Assembly: GCF_003024195.1 (NCBI RefSeq)
Contig: NZ_KZ679048.1
Location: forward strand, 248,001 to 312,000
Length of the DNA: 64,000 nt
Direction of reading: 5' to 3'
Source: Streptomyces dioscori
Lineage (GTDB): Bacteria; Actinomycetota; Actinomycetes; Streptomycetales; Streptomycetaceae
In this document: piece after piece, positions 18,623 through 27,116 of the stretch
Position numbering within the stretch: position 1 is the stretch's first letter
Layout of the letters: each line of letters opens with the position of its first letter
Notes under the pieces: generated by a model
The model's input: the letters and a program-made list of their open reading frames with translations, nothing else
What the model was told of the DNA's origin: nothing
Database searches by the model: none
Program-made: the position numbers and the translations under genes

Positions 18623-19339
18623 TCACCTGGCGGGCGCAGGGCCGTACAGCTGTGCCGGGTCGCCGGCCAGGGCCGCCTTGACGAAGCGGCTGGGGTCGTC
18701 GACCAGCACTTCGAGGGAGTCGCTCTGCACACCGTCAAGGCTGGCACGTGCGACGTCGACGGGATCGATCTTGGGGGCGTTGCTGCCCGCCATCATGTCG
18801 GTGTCCGCTGCCCCCAGGTGGACACCCTGGACAAGGGTCTTCTGTCCGGCGAGCTCGACGCGTACGCCGTTGGTCATGTTCCACTCGGCGGCTTTGGCGA
18901 CGGAGTAGGAGCCCGAACCGTGGGGGGTGGCGACCCATGACAGTACGGAGAGGACGTTCACGATCGCTCCGCCGCCGTGGGTGGCCAGGACCGGAGCGAA
19001 GGCGCGGATGACGCGGAGCGTGCCGAAAAGATGCGTCTCCAGTTCCCGCCGGACGCCGTCCAGGTCGTCGGTCAGCAGGCTGGCTCCCGTGGCAATGCCA
19101 GCGTTGTTGACCAGCAGTGTCACATCCTGTGCGATGGCGGCCGCATCCGTGATCGACTTCTCGTCGAGGAGGTCCAGGTACAGCGGGCTGACGCGGGAGT
19201 CGGATGCGGTGATCGTCTCCGGGCTGCGGGCAGCCGCGTAGACCCTCTCGGCTCCGCGGGCCAGCAATTCGTCAACGAAGCGCCGGCCGATGCCCCGGTT
19301 GGCTCCGGTCACGAGCGCGGTGGAACCAGCGATGTCCAT
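18623..19339 (-). CDS. SDR-family oxidoreductase (MerR-linked)
   Basis: 238 aa classical short-chain dehydrogenase. NAD(P)-binding TGANRGIGR (about residue 10), NNAG near 80, and the Ser/Tyr/Lys catalytic set in LSVLSW...YSVAK (about 130-150). ATG 19339 follows AGG with good spacing; ATG 19345 is an alternative. Divergent from a MerR regulator with a perfect dyad between them, the usual arrangement for an effector-induced reductase. Substrate unknown. The broken IS4 element lies directly downstream. Confidence 0.88.
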   Translation of the reverse strand: MDIAGSTALVTGANRGIGRRFVDELLARGAERVYAAARSPETITASDSRVSPLYLDLLDEKSITDAAAIAQDVTLLVNNAGIATGASLLTDDLDGVRRELETHLFGTLRVIRAFAPVLATHGGGAIVNVLSVLSWVATPHGSGSYSVAKAAEWNMTNGVRVELAGQKTLVQGVHLGAADTDMMAGSNAPKIDPVDVARASLDGVQSDSLEVLVDDPSRFVKAALAGDPAQLYGPAPAR

Positions 19340-19401
19340 GATCATCCTTTCGTCGGGCGGAGGGCAGCGATTACTCCCGCCCTCCGCGCCTACGCTAGAA
19401 C

Positions 19402-19417
19402 TTGACGCCAACGTCAA
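19402..19417. promoter_or_regulatory. MerR operator in the SDR/merR divergent promoter
   Basis: TTGACG-CCAA-CGTCAA, a perfect dyad lying between the two start codons. Its TTGACG arms can also act as -35 boxes, matching the way MerR proteins bind between -35 and -10. Confidence 0.75.
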
Positions 19418-19455
19418 AGGCAAATCGGGCACCGCAGAGCAAGGAACGAGTCACA

Positions 19456-19854
19456 GTGCGTATCGGAGAGCTGGCCGACCGGGCCTGTGTCAGTACGCGC
19501 GCATTGCGCTACTACGAGGAGCAGGGTCTGCTGCATTCCTCGCGCACGGCAGGAGGACAGCGTGTCTACCCGCAGACGGCGGAGGACCGTGTACGGCTGA
19601 TCCGCGAGCTCTACGCAGCCGGGCTCACCAGCCGCATGATCGCCACACTCCTGCCGGCCATCGATGCACGCCACGTCGGTCCCGAGTTGCTGGGGCGCTT
19701 GCTCGAAGAACGTGCCCGCACGACGGCGAAGGTCGCCGAGTTGCAGGCGGCGGGCCAACGCCTCGACGTCTTGATCGCCCTCGCCACGCACCCGGACTCC
19801 GACTCGTGTCCAGCCACACTCGACCAGGCAGCCGCAACAAGTCCCGCCCCGTAG
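19456..19854 (+). CDS. MerR-family regulator
   Basis: 132 aa. The N-terminal winged helix is typical (VRIGELADRACVSTRALRYYEEQGLL, then GGQRVYPQTAEDRVRLI), followed by a coiled-coil helix (about residues 75-110) for dimerisation and a short tail without a Cys-rich metal site, so an organic effector is more likely than a metal. GTG 19456 gives the standard MerR N-terminus and has AAGGA upstream. Expected to control the divergent SDR gene and itself through the 19402-19417 dyad. Confidence 0.88.
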   Translation: MRIGELADRACVSTRALRYYEEQGLLHSSRTAGGQRVYPQTAEDRVRLIRELYAAGLTSRMIATLLPAIDARHVGPELLGRLLEERARTTAKVAELQAAGQRLDVLIALATHPDSDSCPATLDQAAATSPAP

Positions 19855-20489: not shown

Positions 20490-20547
20490 CGGCTTTCGTC
20501 TTGGTCATGTGCACCGACCAAGGTGCACATGACCAAGACGAAGGCCG
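20490..20547. repeat. Long near-perfect inverted repeat at the transposase start
   Basis: Arms 20495-20515 and 20522-20542 are 21 bp and perfectly complementary with a 6-base loop; pairing extends to 20490/20547 with one G-T. The right arm contains the transposase start codon (ATG 20529, MTKTKA), so the left arm is an inverted copy of the gene's own first codons. Confidence 0.9.
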
Positions 20548-22020
20548 TGAGGGTGAGTTTTCTGCCAGACACCGGTCCCGGGGAAGCGTTCGCGAGAGCG
20601 TCACGCTTCCGGGAGGACCTATTCGACTGCCTGACCGCGCGCGGGGACGAACTGTTCGACCTCGCCGACGCGTTGCTGCGCGGACGGTCCGGTGACGGCA
20701 CCGGTGGACCTGACGCTGGTGGCCGAGCACCGGCGCGGGCACGGCGCGATGTACGACGCGCTGAACAGCGGGAACATCGACGTGCCCCGGTTGCGGCAGG
20801 TACTGGCCGGCCTGCCGATGCCGCAGGCCGCCGACTGGCGCCTGGTCCCCGCGGTCGACGTGAGCAACTGGCTGCGCCCGGACGCCCCGACCAGCGCGGA
20901 GCGTCTGTTCTGCCATGTCTACGGCCGCAGCGGACGTCCTCTGACCAGTTCGTCCCCGGCTGGCCGTACTCCTTCGTCGCCGCGCTGGAGTCGGGCCGCA
21001 CGTCCTGGTGCCAGCTCCTGGACGCCGTCCGTCTCGGGCCCGAGGACGACGTCGCCGAGGTCGCCGCCGCGCGGGTCCGCCGGGTGGTCACCGACCTGAT
21101 CGAGATGGGCCGATGGCACGCGGCTGACCGCGACATCCTGGTCGTCTTCGACGCCGGATACGACGCCCCGCGCATGGCCCACTTCCTGGCCGGTCTCCGG
21201 TCGAGATCCTGGGGCGGATGCGCACGGACCGGGTCATGCGTCGCCCGGCACCCTCCCGCAAGGAGTACTACCTGGCCCATCCCCGCGGCGGCCACCCGCC
21301 CAAGCGCGGCGGGGAGTTCCGCTTCCCCAAGCCCGAGACCTGGGGCGAGCCCGACGCCGCGGCCACGCAGGTCACCGACCGGTACGGCACCGCCCGCGCG
21401 ACGGCCTGGGACCGCATCCACCCCCGCCTGACCACCCGCTCCGTATGGATCGACCACACCGGCGAGCTCTCCGTCATCGAGGGCACACTGATCCGCCTCC
21501 AGGTCGACCGCCTGCCCGGCGGAGGCGACCCGCTGCCCCTGTGACTGGGGTCGTCGGCCACCGCCCTGAGCGGCAAGGACGTCGATGTCCGCTGACAGGC
21601 GTTCCTGCGGCGCTTCGACCTGGAGCAGCACACCTTCCGGCTGATGAAGCAAACCCTGGGCTGGACTCGGCGGAAACTCCGTACCCCCGAGGCCGGTGAA
21701 TGCTGGACCTGGATCGTCACCGCCGACCACACCCAGCTCCGCCTCCTCCGCCATGCCGCCGTCGACTTGCGGGGACCGTGGGAGAAGCCGGCGAGCCCGG
21801 ACGGCTCACCCCGGTCCGGGTCCGCCGGGGGTTCAGAAACCTCCGCCCGCACCTGCTCTGTCCGGCCTGTGCGCCGAAACCCGCAACTCCCGTCCCTGGA
21901 GGGCCACTTGGCTCGAAGAACCGGCGACCCGACACCCACTACGACGTGGGCAAAACCGTGGAACGACCAGAAAGCATCACGGAACGAAACAGACCTGGAT
22001 AAACGCCAAGCTCAAGGGCT
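20529..22020 (+). mobile_element. Broken transposase copy 1 (putative DDE transposase)
   Basis: A transposase of the streptomycete family recognisable by EHRRGHGAMYDAL, VDVSNWLRPDA, VPGWPYSFVAALESGR, FDAGYDAPRMAHFLAGL and MKQTLGWTRRKL. The gene is spread over several frames: shifts near 20690, 20930 and 21200 and an in-frame TGA at 21542-21544. Its right end is AAACGCCAAGCTCAAGGGCT up to 22020, matching the end of copy 2. The matching left end is missing and replaced by the hairpin. Inactive. Confidence 0.85.
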
Positions 22021-22042
22021 GTCCGCAGGCACTCGCCGTACA

Positions 22043-22062
22043 GGTGTGACCAGAGTCACACC
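22043..22062. promoter_or_regulatory. Perfect 20-bp palindrome upstream of the cassette genes
   Basis: GGTGTGACCAGAGTCACACC, arms of 8 bp around CAGA, 23 bp inside the end of transposase copy 1 and 88 bp before the start of the 383-aa gene. Looks like an operator for a dimeric regulator. Confidence 0.55.
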
Positions 22063-22150
22063 CTCGGCGGCTAATTGTGTTGTCTCTTCAGGGGGTGTGG
22101 CGCCGCCGATAGGTGAAACCGTTTTTTGTCCATCGGGAGGAAAGTGCACC

Positions 22151-23302
22151 ATGTCCGGCAAGATCACTGCTCAAGTGCCACATCTGCCGTCTCGAAGCCG
22201 CACGCGCAGGCGGGACAACGTGCCAGCCCTCGCGGAGCCAAGGCGGACTCCGCGGGCACTCCGCTCCACCAGCCCCGACGTGCTGGAAAGCCTGACAAAG
22301 GCGCTCAAAAACCTTGCCGCTGGCAGAACCGTGCTCGTCGATCTATCAGAAGAGCAGGTTGTCAGGTACTCCGAAAGTCTGCTCGCCGACATGCTTTCGA
22401 CCGCGTTCCCCGGCGTGGAGGCATCGGAAGCGGTAGAAGGCCTCTCCTTCAAGAAGGTGCAGGTCGGGGTCTACGCCGTACGTGCCCGAGGCACTGTAAC
22501 GATCCACCCCTTCATGGACCTGCCAAACCTCCGGTCGGCGATGGCATCACATCTCAAGCACGTCGCCTTGAAGGTCGAGTTCGTCGCTCAGATGCGACTG
22601 ACGTCAGATGGCCGATCCCATGGGAACCTCTCGGTGGCCTGTATCCACTTCGACACCATCACAGCACTGAAAGCTCGTGAAGCGGCCATCCAAGGCAAGG
22701 TCGAGCCTGTAGCCGATCTTGCCTCTCTCGTGCTGGGGCTGCACCATTCAAAGCAGTGGACTGAAGCGCTGTCCACCGCCTTGCTGGGTAGCTGGACAGA
22801 GCCACTGCTGAGCGACACCGGCAACAGTCGTTCGGCCATGAAGCGTCTAAAGACAGAAGCCCGCATCATTCACTCGCAGCTCACTCCCTTATGGCGGCAT
22901 GAAACGAGCGGCTCGCGTCTTCTGCTGCTCGACGCACCCATGGGGAAATACACGTCTCTCTACGACCTGGTGGCCGTCGGCTCGGACGGGGAGCCCACCT
23001 CGTTCTACGACGGGCCTGATGACGCCCGGCTAGGCGCCCTCCTACGCGCCTTGCAGCCCGAGGAACGCGTCGTGATGCTGGCCCGCGCCTGCCCAGGGGT
23101 GGCTTCCTGGGAAGAGGCCGCTCTCCTGGCGGGCGCCACTGACCCAGTCGCCATGGGAAAGCGGGTACGTCGCAAGGTCGACCGCCTCAGAACCCGCCAA
23201 AAGGCCCGCGCCGCGGCGGCAGCTCGGCAACAGTCAGCAAGGGCCGCACACGACTCGCCTCGCCTGGCAAGTGGCCCTGAGTCGGGAGGACGAGGTGAAT
23301 AG
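22151..23302 (+). CDS. Unknown protein with a sigma-region-4-like C-terminus
   Basis: 383 aa, not recognised as a named family. Start ATG 22151 has GGAGGAAAG upstream. The first 45 residues are basic and Pro/Ser-rich. Residues about 50-280 form a mixed alpha/beta domain. At about 298-350, LLRALQPEERVVMLARACPG, SWEEAALLAGATDP and VRRKVDRLRTR resemble the helix-turn-helix of sigma-70 region 4, so DNA or RNA polymerase contact is plausible (inference). It contains one TTA codon at 22889, so translation may depend on the bldA tRNA. It overlaps the next small gene by 8 bp and the pair is bracketed by inverted transposase remnants. Confidence 0.8.
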   Translation: MSGKITAQVPHLPSRSRTRRRDNVPALAEPRRTPRALRSTSPDVLESLTKALKNLAAGRTVLVDLSEEQVVRYSESLLADMLSTAFPGVEASEAVEGLSFKKVQVGVYAVRARGTVTIHPFMDLPNLRSAMASHLKHVALKVEFVAQMRLTSDGRSHGNLSVACIHFDTITALKAREAAIQGKVEPVADLASLVLGLHHSKQWTEALSTALLGSWTEPLLSDTGNSRSAMKRLKTEARIIHSQLTPLWRHETSGSRLLLLDAPMGKYTSLYDLVAVGSDGEPTSFYDGPDDARLGALLRALQPEERVVMLARACPGVASWEEAALLAGATDPVAMGKRVRRKVDRLRTRQKARAAAAARQQSARAAHDSPRLASGPESGGRGE

Positions 23303-23447
23303 CGACCGACAGATCGGCGTGCGTACGGCCGTCCTGCTGCTGGCGGGTGCGATCACTGTCATTGTGGCTGTGCGAAAACCTGAGCTGGGCATGGCCATCG
23401 GGATAGGTATCGCCGTGGTCACCCTGCTGGACCTGCTGATGGAGTAG
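23295..23447 (+). CDS. Small two-helix membrane protein
   Basis: 50 aa. GTG 23295 has GGAGG about five bases upstream and overlaps the stop of the preceding gene by 8 bp, so the two are coupled. The sequence has two hydrophobic segments, VRTAVLLLAGAITVIVAV and MAIGIGIAVVTLLDLLM, separated by a short RKPELG turn, giving a membrane hairpin. No recognised family. The gene ends 10 bp before the end of transposase copy 2, which suggests it is the last cargo gene of the cassette. A membrane partner for the upstream protein is a reasonable guess. Confidence 0.7.
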   Translation: MNSDRQIGVRTAVLLLAGAITVIVAVRKPELGMAIGIGIAVVTLLDLLME

Positions 23448-23457
23448 CCAGGAAACG

Positions 23458-24522
23458 AGGCTGTGCCTGGCGTTTATGCAGCTCTGCTGCTCGCGATGGC
23501 TTCCGCGAGGTTCGGTTGGTCCTGTCTCCCGACGGGGTGCTCGCGTGCGCGGTGCTTGTTCTGCATCCCAATTGGCCGGCCGGGGCCCGCGGCGCTGGAT
23601 TTCGGTGCGCTGGTCGGCTGAGGTGCTTTCGCGTGTGGGCGGCGAAATCCTCGACGGACACGCGCGGGTGCGAGGCACTCTTGGCGGGCGGGCCGTTCCC
23701 ATGGGTCGCGGAGGTCTTCTGCGACGGGTCGGGCAAGGCGGAGCTGAGTGTGGGCTGCGATGACGACCCAGGTCCAGTGGTCGGCGCCGGCCGGCTCACG
23801 GAGTTTGGGAGCGGTCCACCCCAACGTCTGCTTGAGCATTCTGAAGGTGTGCTTCGAGGTCGAATCTGCGCAGGAATGCCCGCCAGAGCCTGTCCACGTC
23901 GTCGGCCGTGGCGGCGGTGCCTGACCACCACAGCCAGACCCGTCTGGGGCTGCGGTCTCCACGGAGGTGGTCGACCTGAAGATGCACGACGGTGCCTTCG
24001 ATGGCCGGCAGCTCTCCTTCGGGGTGGTCGGCCCAGGCCGAGCGCCGAACCAGTAGCGGGTGCAGGCGATCCCAGGCACTGGCAACCGCCCATAGTGGGT
24101 GGTGTCGGACACGGTGGTGGCCGACGGGGTCGGCTCAATGGCTGCGGCCTCCTGTGGCAGAACAGCCGGTTCGGGCTGGTATTCGCGTCCGGCCGCAGCC
24201 AGTTGCTCACGTCGACGGCCAGGACCAGCCGCCCCTCCGATGTGCGGGGAAGTGGCAACCCTGCCAGCGTTCTGCGCAGCCGTGCCACATCCGGATCGCC
24301 GCGGTTCAGGCCGCCGTACAAGGCGCCGTGCCCGCGCCGATGCTCGGGCTCCAACGACAACTCGGCCACCGTCCTCACCGGACCATCCGCGGAAAGCAGG
24401 GCGTCACTCAGACGGAGCACAGGATCAAGCGAAGGCCGCTCCTACGTCCGGAACTTAGGCAAAACCATCATCAAGTTCGAGGCCGTGTTCGACGGCAGAC
24501 CATAAACGTCAAGCCTAGGGCT
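23458..24522 (-). mobile_element. Broken transposase copy 2, inverted relative to copy 1
   Basis: Same family as the 20.5-22.0 kb copy but on the minus strand. It shows RLSDALLSADGPVRT, EHRRGHGALYGGLNRG, VDVSNWLRPDANTSPNRLFCH, then a large deletion, then frame-shifted pieces (LWRAFLRRFDLE, MLKQTLGWTAPKLRE, IAAHTQLRLARP). Both ends survive: ATAAACG-TCAAG at 24502-24522 and the related GCCTGGCGTTTAT at 23458-23477. The N-terminal 30-40 codons are also lost. At about 1065 bp it is well short of the roughly 1.5 kb expected. Confidence 0.82.
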
Positions 24523-25277: not shown

Positions 25278-26003
25278 TCAGGAATCGCTGAACTTGTCCG
25301 CCAGGCCCTTCTCCAGGTAGTCGTCCGGCAGGTCATGGATGACCAACTCGGCGTCGGTGCGCTCGGCGTGCAGCCGCCAGTACGCGTCGGCCATCGTCTC
25401 GGGCTGGGAGTCGTGGCCGCCCTGGCCGATGAAGGCGGCGATCGCCACATGCGCGGCGTAGACGCCGGTACCGGAGAGCGCAGCATGCAGATTGAGGATC
25501 CAGTTACGCATCCCACCGGTGGCGATCTGAACGTTTGCCACGTGTGGCGCGATCATCGGTCCCGAACCCGCGCCACTGCTGACCAGGACCGTTCCGGTGC
25601 CGCGTTCGAGCATGCCGGGCAGGACGTGCTGCACCGCTGCCACGCCACCGAGCAGGTAGAGATCCAGCTGGGCCAGAACCGCGTCGACGGTGACCTTCGT
25701 GGCTTCGACGAGCGGCGCCCGACGCAGGTCAGCCGGGGCCGGCGCGGGGGAGTACTCAAGCACGTCGATCGGCCCCAGGCGTTCCTCTGCGGCGGCCAGC
25801 GCCGCATGCAGGGCAGGCCGATCGGTTACGTCGGCCGGGAAGACCCCGACCCGGGTGCCCGTATCGGCCAGATCGTCGGCCACCTTCTGCAGCGTCGTAC
25901 GGTTGCGGGCGATCAGCGCCACGTCGAACCCCTCGGCGGCGAACCGCCGACTGATCGCCTGACCCAGTTGTGGGCCCGCTCCAACGACCGCGATCGTGCT
26001 CAA
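25278..26003 (-). CDS. SDR-fold protein lacking the catalytic Tyr motif
   Basis: 241 aa Rossmann-fold protein: VVGAGPQLGQAISRRFAAEG (dinucleotide loop, residues about 5-25), ARNRTTLQKVADDL, PADVTD. Where classical SDRs have YxxxK it reads VQIATGGMRNW, so the Tyr is absent and the Lys is missing. It may bind a cofactor without standard SDR chemistry. The TTG start at 26003 is supported by GAGGTG five bases upstream and the natural N-terminus STIAVVGAG. Divergent from an AraC regulator, as is often seen for such pairs. Confidence 0.82.
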   Translation of the reverse strand: MSTIAVVGAGPQLGQAISRRFAAEGFDVALIARNRTTLQKVADDLADTGTRVGVFPADVTDRPALHAALAAAEERLGPIDVLEYSPAPAPADLRRAPLVEATKVTVDAVLAQLDLYLLGGVAAVQHVLPGMLERGTGTVLVSSGAGSGPMIAPHVANVQIATGGMRNWILNLHAALSGTGVYAAHVAIAAFIGQGGHDSQPETMADAYWRLHAERTDAELVIHDLPDDYLEKGLADKFSDS

Positions 26004-26117
26004 TTCGCCACCTCGTTACCATCGTTCTTGTTCTGCTTCGCATGGCAACCATAGAAAGGGCTCCGTCCCGGCGGCTTGGACCGGCGCGACAGCCCGAACG
26101 GAAGATTCGCGACACCA

Positions 26118-27116
26118 ATGAACGGCAATTTGTCGGTGATCCTTAGCGGTGCGAACGCATTCAGCGACTTCGCACGTGAGTGGCAGACCCGGATGGGCGA
26201 GACCTTTGCTCTGGCATCCTTCGACAGGAGTACCGTCGCCGGCTTCGCGGTCAGATCGCGCGGTTTTCGAGTACGGGACGTGCTGTTCAACCGCTTCGAG
26301 AACGCGGCCGTACTGCGGACGGCGGGCCAGCGTGTCGGAACCGAAGATCACGTACGACTGTGGATTGTCCACCGGGGTGCCTGGCGGTTCGGAGAACCGG
26401 GAGGGATCGAGCACACGACACCGGCCGGCCGCTTACTGCTCCAGACGGGAGAGCTGTCCCACTTCTCTGCGGCGCCAGGCACCACGGGCCAGGTGCTCGT
26501 ACTGCCTGCCGCGGAGATTCGGCGCGGCCGGGGCCGGCCGGTCACTGGTTTGGCCGACACGGCCGAGGTACGGTTACTGACCGCACACGCCACCCTGGTG
26601 AGCCGCATGTTGGACGGTCTCGGCCCCGCCGGGATCAATGCCACCCGCGACACCCTGGCCGAGTTGGCCCGGGCTGCTGCCGGAGGCGGCCTGGATGACG
26701 TGGAGCCCCTGCTGTCGCCGGCACTGGCCCAGGCCGCTCGGGACCTAGCCGACCGGCGGCTCACCGACCCCGCTCTCTCCGCTGCGGCTCTCGCGCGGAA
26801 ACTGAACGTCTCCGCGCGTACCCTCCAGCGGGCCTTCGCCAATGAGGGCCAGTCACTGAGCGCCTACATCCGGGAGCGGCGACTCGACGAGGCGCGCCGC
26901 GCGCTCATCACACCGCACCGGCGTATGTCCATCACAGAGATCGCCGCCCGCTGGCAGTTTGCCGACAGTGGCCACTTTGCCCGTGCCTTCCGTAAGCGCT
27001 ACGACCAGACTCCAACCGACTACGCCGCGACCGTCACTTGTGAATCGGACGTCCCCGGTTTGAGGACTCGCGACCGCTCTGTGATGGAAAGGGCGACCAG
27101 AGCCTCGACCCCGTAG
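26118..27116 (+). CDS. AraC-family regulator with two TTA codons
   Basis: 332 aa. The N-terminal half is an AraC-type sensor resembling the AraC_binding_2 group (LWIVHRGAWRF, TPAGRLLLQTGELSHFS). The C-terminal DNA-binding domain has both helix-turn-helix units: LSAAALARKLNVSARTLQRAF (about residues 218-238) and ITEIAARWQFADSGHFARAF (about 270-290) followed by YDQTPTDY. TTA codons lie at 26433 and 26574, so in Streptomyces it would need the bldA leucyl tRNA. ATG 26118 is chosen; TTG 26076 is possible. Likely controls the divergent SDR-fold gene. Confidence 0.88.
   Translation: MNGNLSVILSGANAFSDFAREWQTRMGETFALASFDRSTVAGFAVRSRGFRVRDVLFNRFENAAVLRTAGQRVGTEDHVRLWIVHRGAWRFGEPGGIEHTTPAGRLLLQTGELSHFSAAPGTTGQVLVLPAAEIRRGRGRPVTGLADTAEVRLLTAHATLVSRMLDGLGPAGINATRDTLAELARAAAGGGLDDVEPLLSPALAQAARDLADRRLTDPALSAAALARKLNVSARTLQRAFANEGQSLSAYIRERRLDEARRALITPHRRMSITEIAARWQFADSGHFARAFRKRYDQTPTDYAATVTCESDVPGLRTRDRSVMERATRASTP

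Follow-up and report, generated by a model that had tools for sequence, protein, structure and literature searches.

A sigma-like protein and an overlapping small membrane protein as a recurring accessory gene pair in Streptomyces

The gene pair and its flanking insertion sequences

The window analysed here is a stretch of 64,000 nucleotides from Streptomyces dioscori (assembly GCF_003024195.1, contig NZ_KZ679048.1, positions 248,001 to 312,000; host genome 10.2 Mb), and all coordinates below refer to it. Within this window an intact pair of genes is found between the remnants of two insertion sequences (IS): the first gene encodes a 383-aa sigma-like protein and the second a 50-aa two-helix membrane protein, with both reading frames open and both provided with good ribosome sites. 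The cassette extends from 22011 to 23465, its bounds being set by the facing IS ends, and its features and neighbours are as follows:

18623-19432, strand not given: SDR gene, open reading frame with Pfam match
19402-19854, strand not given: MerR gene, open reading frame with Pfam match
20490..20547, no strand: 26-nt inverted repeat beside the copy 1 transposase start, partly common to relatives of the element in genomes G019 and G024
20523..22010, plus strand: IS copy 1, NF041680/DDE_5 transposase pseudogene using frames 1, 2 and 3, with internal stops
22011..22150, plus strand: leader from the end of IS copy 1 to the start codon of the 383-aa gene, containing the Shine-Dalgarno sequence GGGAGGAAAG
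22151..23302, plus strand: gene of the 383-aa sigma-like protein, Shine-Dalgarno sequence GGGAGGAAAG
23295..23447, plus strand: gene of the 50-aa two-helix membrane protein, GTG start at 23295, Shine-Dalgarno sequence GGGAGGACGAG
23466..24513, minus strand: IS copy 2, NF041680/DDE_5 remnant with broken frames, both terminal repeats recognisable
25278-26003, strand not given: SDR gene, open reading frame with Pfam match
26076-27116, strand not given: AraC-type gene, open reading frame with Pfam match

The 50-aa gene overlaps the upstream 383-aa gene by 8 nt, and a scan for sigma-70 consensus promoters upstream of the 383-aa gene found none. In base composition the 383-aa gene stands apart from its surroundings: its GC content is 63.5% over the whole gene and 71% at third codon positions, compared with 74% and 86–94%, respectively, in the transposase remnants next to it. 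A search of 61 related genomes turned up no close relative of the cassette at the DNA level. The first-pass annotation had described an intact two-gene cassette with good ribosome sites, the lengths and overlap of both genes and the two inverted, dead transposase copies around them, all of which is borne out by our analysis. Its further statement that everything around the pair is decayed does not hold: the MerR, AraC-type and two SDR genes nearby are open and match Pfam, and thus the region is not uniformly decayed. These genes make up two divergent regulator/SDR pairs on either side of the cassette, one with MerR (18623-19854) and one with the AraC-type regulator (25278-27116).

The transposase matches on the two flanks of the cassette are both to NF041680/DDE_5 and face opposite ways; translated comparison reveals frame changes in both copies, and internal stops. 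The positions of the IS ends were inferred from near-identical, intact relatives of the element in other genomes, which measure approximately 1.59 kb, run from CTTG...CAAG and are bordered by 5-bp target duplications of the form CTNAG. On this basis the inner ends lie at 22010 and 23466, close to the 22020 and 23458 given previously but not identical to them, and leave 140 bp up to the start codon of the 383-aa gene on one side and 18 bp from the stop codon of the 50-aa gene on the other, a spacing known from this single instance. Copy 2 has been reduced to 1,048 bp (outer end at 24513), whilst for copy 1 comparison with the intact relatives did not reveal an outer terminal repeat. The 5-mers beside the three recognised ends are CTCAA, CTGTG and CCTAG, and display no target duplication. 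Identity between the two copies amounts to 67–73%, counted over the alignable stretches only, which indicates that they are not recent sisters. Elsewhere, on one contig of another genome (G025, C3), two copies of the same IS (loci L120 and L121) lie approximately 23 kb apart in opposite orientation with 99.7% identity, and their flanking 5-mers are exchanged (CTCAG/CTAAG and CTAAG/CTCAG), as expected for an inversion by recombination between the two copies.

Similarity of the 383-aa protein to sigma factors

The 383-aa protein matches no entry in Pfam, NCBIfam, PHROGs or PADLOC. It is laid out as a variable N-terminus (aa 1-160), a helical domain (aa 161-250), a sigma-finger-like motif, LLLLDAPMGKYTSLYDLVA, at about aa 256-276, and a helix bundle resembling sigma region 4 (aa 290-357). 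In the AlphaFold model, confidence is high for the core (about aa 166-250 and 290-365) but low for the N-terminus. Structural matches to this model are mostly sigma factors, the best being region 4 of M. tuberculosis SigD (61 residues, 2.4 Å) with a Z-score of 6.3, a range (Z < 8) in which a common helical arrangement can be responsible for the match; Foldseek alone returned no significant match for either the full model or that of the helical domain. In a profile-profile comparison with the group 1–3 sigma factors of the same genome, finger and region 4 align in register over 89 columns with 27% identity, the E-value of 4e-4 applying to one comparison. In this alignment the motif LLLLDxPLGxGLTLYDLVA coincides with the sigma finger, and the alignment runs on through region 4. 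The best matches of a profile search of the PDB are to SigA over finger plus region 4, at an E-value of only 0.2. The Pfam sigma models did not match the 383-aa protein, Sigma70_r4 matches one of 23 homologues weakly, and a comparison with ECF sigma factors yielded no match at the profile level. When the helical domain was modelled alone, its top five structural matches were sigma region 2, at weak scores (Z 3.6–4.0) and with no sequence-level match.

Taken at these modest scores, the 383-aa protein is most likely a divergent member of the sigma70 superfamily. A helix-turn-helix fold of the region 4 type is supported by both the predicted structure and the profiles, in line with the sigma-region-4-like C-terminus proposed in the first-pass annotation; judged from the alignment, the finger motif is likely a sigma finger, and the model suggests that the helical domain is possibly region-2-like.

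Distribution of the family and its membrane partners

Homologues of the 383-aa protein were drawn from genome searches and from a plasmid collection. Protein searches gave relatives in 21 of 199 Streptomyces genomes and in 46 plasmid records, whilst a profile built from 19 cores places the family in 63 of 393 Streptomyces genomes, some of which contain partial matches only. Several copies per genome occur, and plasmid-borne members can adjoin ParA/ParB genes. Phage records gave no match to the family, and a sample across the phylum outside Streptomyces only weak profile matches, one of which (E 9e-5) proved on inspection to be an ordinary ECF sigma factor. The regulators range from approximately 260 to 500 aa, and their core (aa 161-365) exhibits W, P, W, D, G and RRK residues that are invariant or nearly so, all of which are kept in the 383-aa protein. 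Clustering of the genes around the homologues revealed no strongly recurrent neighbours except the family itself and transposase-like ORFs.

Two loci stand at the margins of this picture. The Streptomyces protein at L183 (G067:C1:2985763) has approximately 500 aa and combines a related end resembling sigma region 4 with a long N-terminus of a different kind; similar matches occur in four further genomes (G119, G130, G171 and G239), with only the L183 sequence having been read, and such proteins possibly form a wider superfamily with the 383-aa family. At L110 (G091), a family member exhibits a Cys/His-rich, HNH-like N-terminus and is followed, with a 4-nt overlap, by a gene for a membrane protein of approximately 300 aa in place of a small one.

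A small membrane gene (30–135 aa with a membrane segment) lies within 10 nt of the stop codon in 28 of 50 family genes compared with 4 of 174 control ORFs (Fisher p 6e-18, which is optimistic given that the rows are related). Most of these genes overlap by 4 nt (ATGA or GTGA) and most partners comprise 40–115 aa; since the second gene usually overlaps the first, the partners are probably translationally coupled. This recurring gene order together with the sigma-like fold agrees with the earlier suggestion of a membrane-linked regulatory pair. In 20 of the 50 family genes no small membrane ORF is present between -45 and +40 nt, several of these being gene fragments or inner members of a tandem array. 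Plasmids can carry two or three sigma-like genes in tandem ahead of a single small membrane gene. Such an arrangement is seen at L003, L086 and L192, where a tandem of two or three sigma-like paralogs is followed by one small two-helix membrane gene of a YRHP type.

The partners, grouped by eye, fall into a two-helix HPxxG type (the 50-aa protein, its counterparts at L083 and L103 with 40% and 48% identity, and others), a PEFLG type with a single helix and a basic tail, an SPLVWP type and some further types. On the tree of the cores the partner type changes at least 11 times, the least possible number being 3 and shuffled labels giving 18.5; types are thus more clustered than in shuffled data, and the pattern fits inheritance with repeated exchange of partners. 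The PEFLG partner is not confined to loci with a sigma-like gene, with short-profile matches above about E 1e-5 being mostly chance: at L155 (G149) and L158 (G062) the PEFLG segment heads proteins of 117–128 aa that have no sigma-like gene beside them and carry a C-terminal domain of approximately 70 aa (RYTLL...RAGTVI...GPERFELT).

Neither the 50-aa protein nor nine other partners matched an anti-sigma domain in Pfam or NCBIfam, searches that very short anti-sigma peptides may escape. Ahead of its first membrane helix the 50-aa protein has no more than about 10 residues, and its soluble part is too short to hold an anti-sigma domain of the classical kind; the small size of the partner argues against one.

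Origin and possible role of the module

The position of the pair between two inverted, related IS, whose facing ends come so close to the genes, had led to its description as composite-transposon cargo kept by selection. Bracketing of this kind is shared with IS composite transposons, but the cassette differs from them in its divergent copies, in the missing outer end of copy 1 and in homologous copies that are not bracketed: an NF041680/DDE_5 element on both sides was found at none of 44 homologous loci (within 2.5 kb). Moreover, the transposases are dead and the flanking 5-mers do not match. The locus lacks the near-identical IS, the complete pair of outer ends and the enclosing target duplication of a composite transposon; we consider cargo status highly improbable. 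In view of the divergent copies, the lack of a duplication and the unbracketed homologous loci, the bracket most likely stems from two independent insertions beside a module that they did not carry. The first-pass annotation had named a fixed core pair in genomes free of flanking transposases as the finding that would speak against cargo: the same pair does occur at L083 and L103, where the scanned neighbours include no transposase, but the family is sporadic rather than a fixed core. That the gene pair recurs without these IS indicates a free-standing accessory module rather than transposon cargo. The cassette thus appears to belong to an undescribed Streptomyces family of accessory modules with two genes each, which probably moves laterally by way of plasmids and accessory regions; a description of a sigma-like protein paired with a membrane peptide was not found in the open-access literature.

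As for its role, we favour, at a tentative probability of roughly 45%, an accessory module in which a sigma-like regulator is coupled to an exchangeable membrane peptide for tethering or sensing, which has spread laterally and beside which the IS landed independently. The first gene would supply a divergent sigma70-superfamily protein with variable N-terminus, conserved helical domain, sigma-finger-like linker and region 4, and the second a small membrane protein of one of several unrelated types. In the most likely mechanism the latter would tether the sigma-like protein to the membrane or act as its sensor; upon release, the sigma-like protein would act on RNA polymerase or DNA, with its own promoter and perhaps others as targets. 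By analogy, gene order and the sigma-like domain suit a sigma/anti-sigma pair. ECF sigma factors with membrane anti-sigma factors (such as SigE/RseA and CnrH/CnrY) share the order of sigma gene and membrane partner, the overlapping start and stop and the C-terminal region 4-like domain. The pair here differs from them in a partner with no recognisable soluble anti-sigma domain and exchangeable in type, and in a 383-aa protein that exhibits a long variable N-terminus, a finger linker of the group 1–3 kind and no region 2 at the sequence level. A combination of actinobacterial sigma factors with transmembrane segments is also known from ECF groups with fused membrane extensions (ECF52, SCO4117), but in these the C-terminus itself carries the membrane part, together with a zinc-finger domain, in place of a separate tiny protein (PMC8999054).

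Partner exchange and plasmid distribution suit a conflict module. In a toxin-antitoxin or abortive-defence system, the small hydrophobic protein would be a membrane-damaging effector that the sigma-like protein represses or restrains until triggered, and the sporadic occurrence, the plasmid locations, including those beside ParA/ParB genes, the several copies per genome, the exchange of unrelated small partners and the overlapping order with the regulator first all point in this direction. Type II toxin-antitoxin operons likewise have a DNA-binding-type protein first and a small coupled protein second, and are sporadic and plasmid-borne. Antitoxins, however, are normally far smaller than the sigma-like protein, which across the family is a regulator with a sigma-like domain and whose partner is only putatively toxic; in addition, PADLOC gave no match and the homologues lack a recurring defence neighbourhood. 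This reading appears possible rather than probable. That the module, moving laterally, serves in conflict or stress response as a system of a type not described, in which the sigma-like part senses or restrains and an interchangeable small membrane effector executes, is in our view possible but less likely than not. An ordinary helix-turn-helix regulator beside a small ORF that is no functional partner could account for the family genes without a membrane ORF, although several of these are fragments or inner tandem copies; it conflicts with the enrichment over control ORFs and with partner sequences that are conserved across divergent loci, and is hence quite improbable.

An unannotated, widespread sigma-like family whose members are each coupled to a swappable membrane peptide would represent a new arrangement in bacterial signalling or self-limitation, and would give a function to many genes now annotated as hypothetical proteins on the linear plasmids of Streptomyces.
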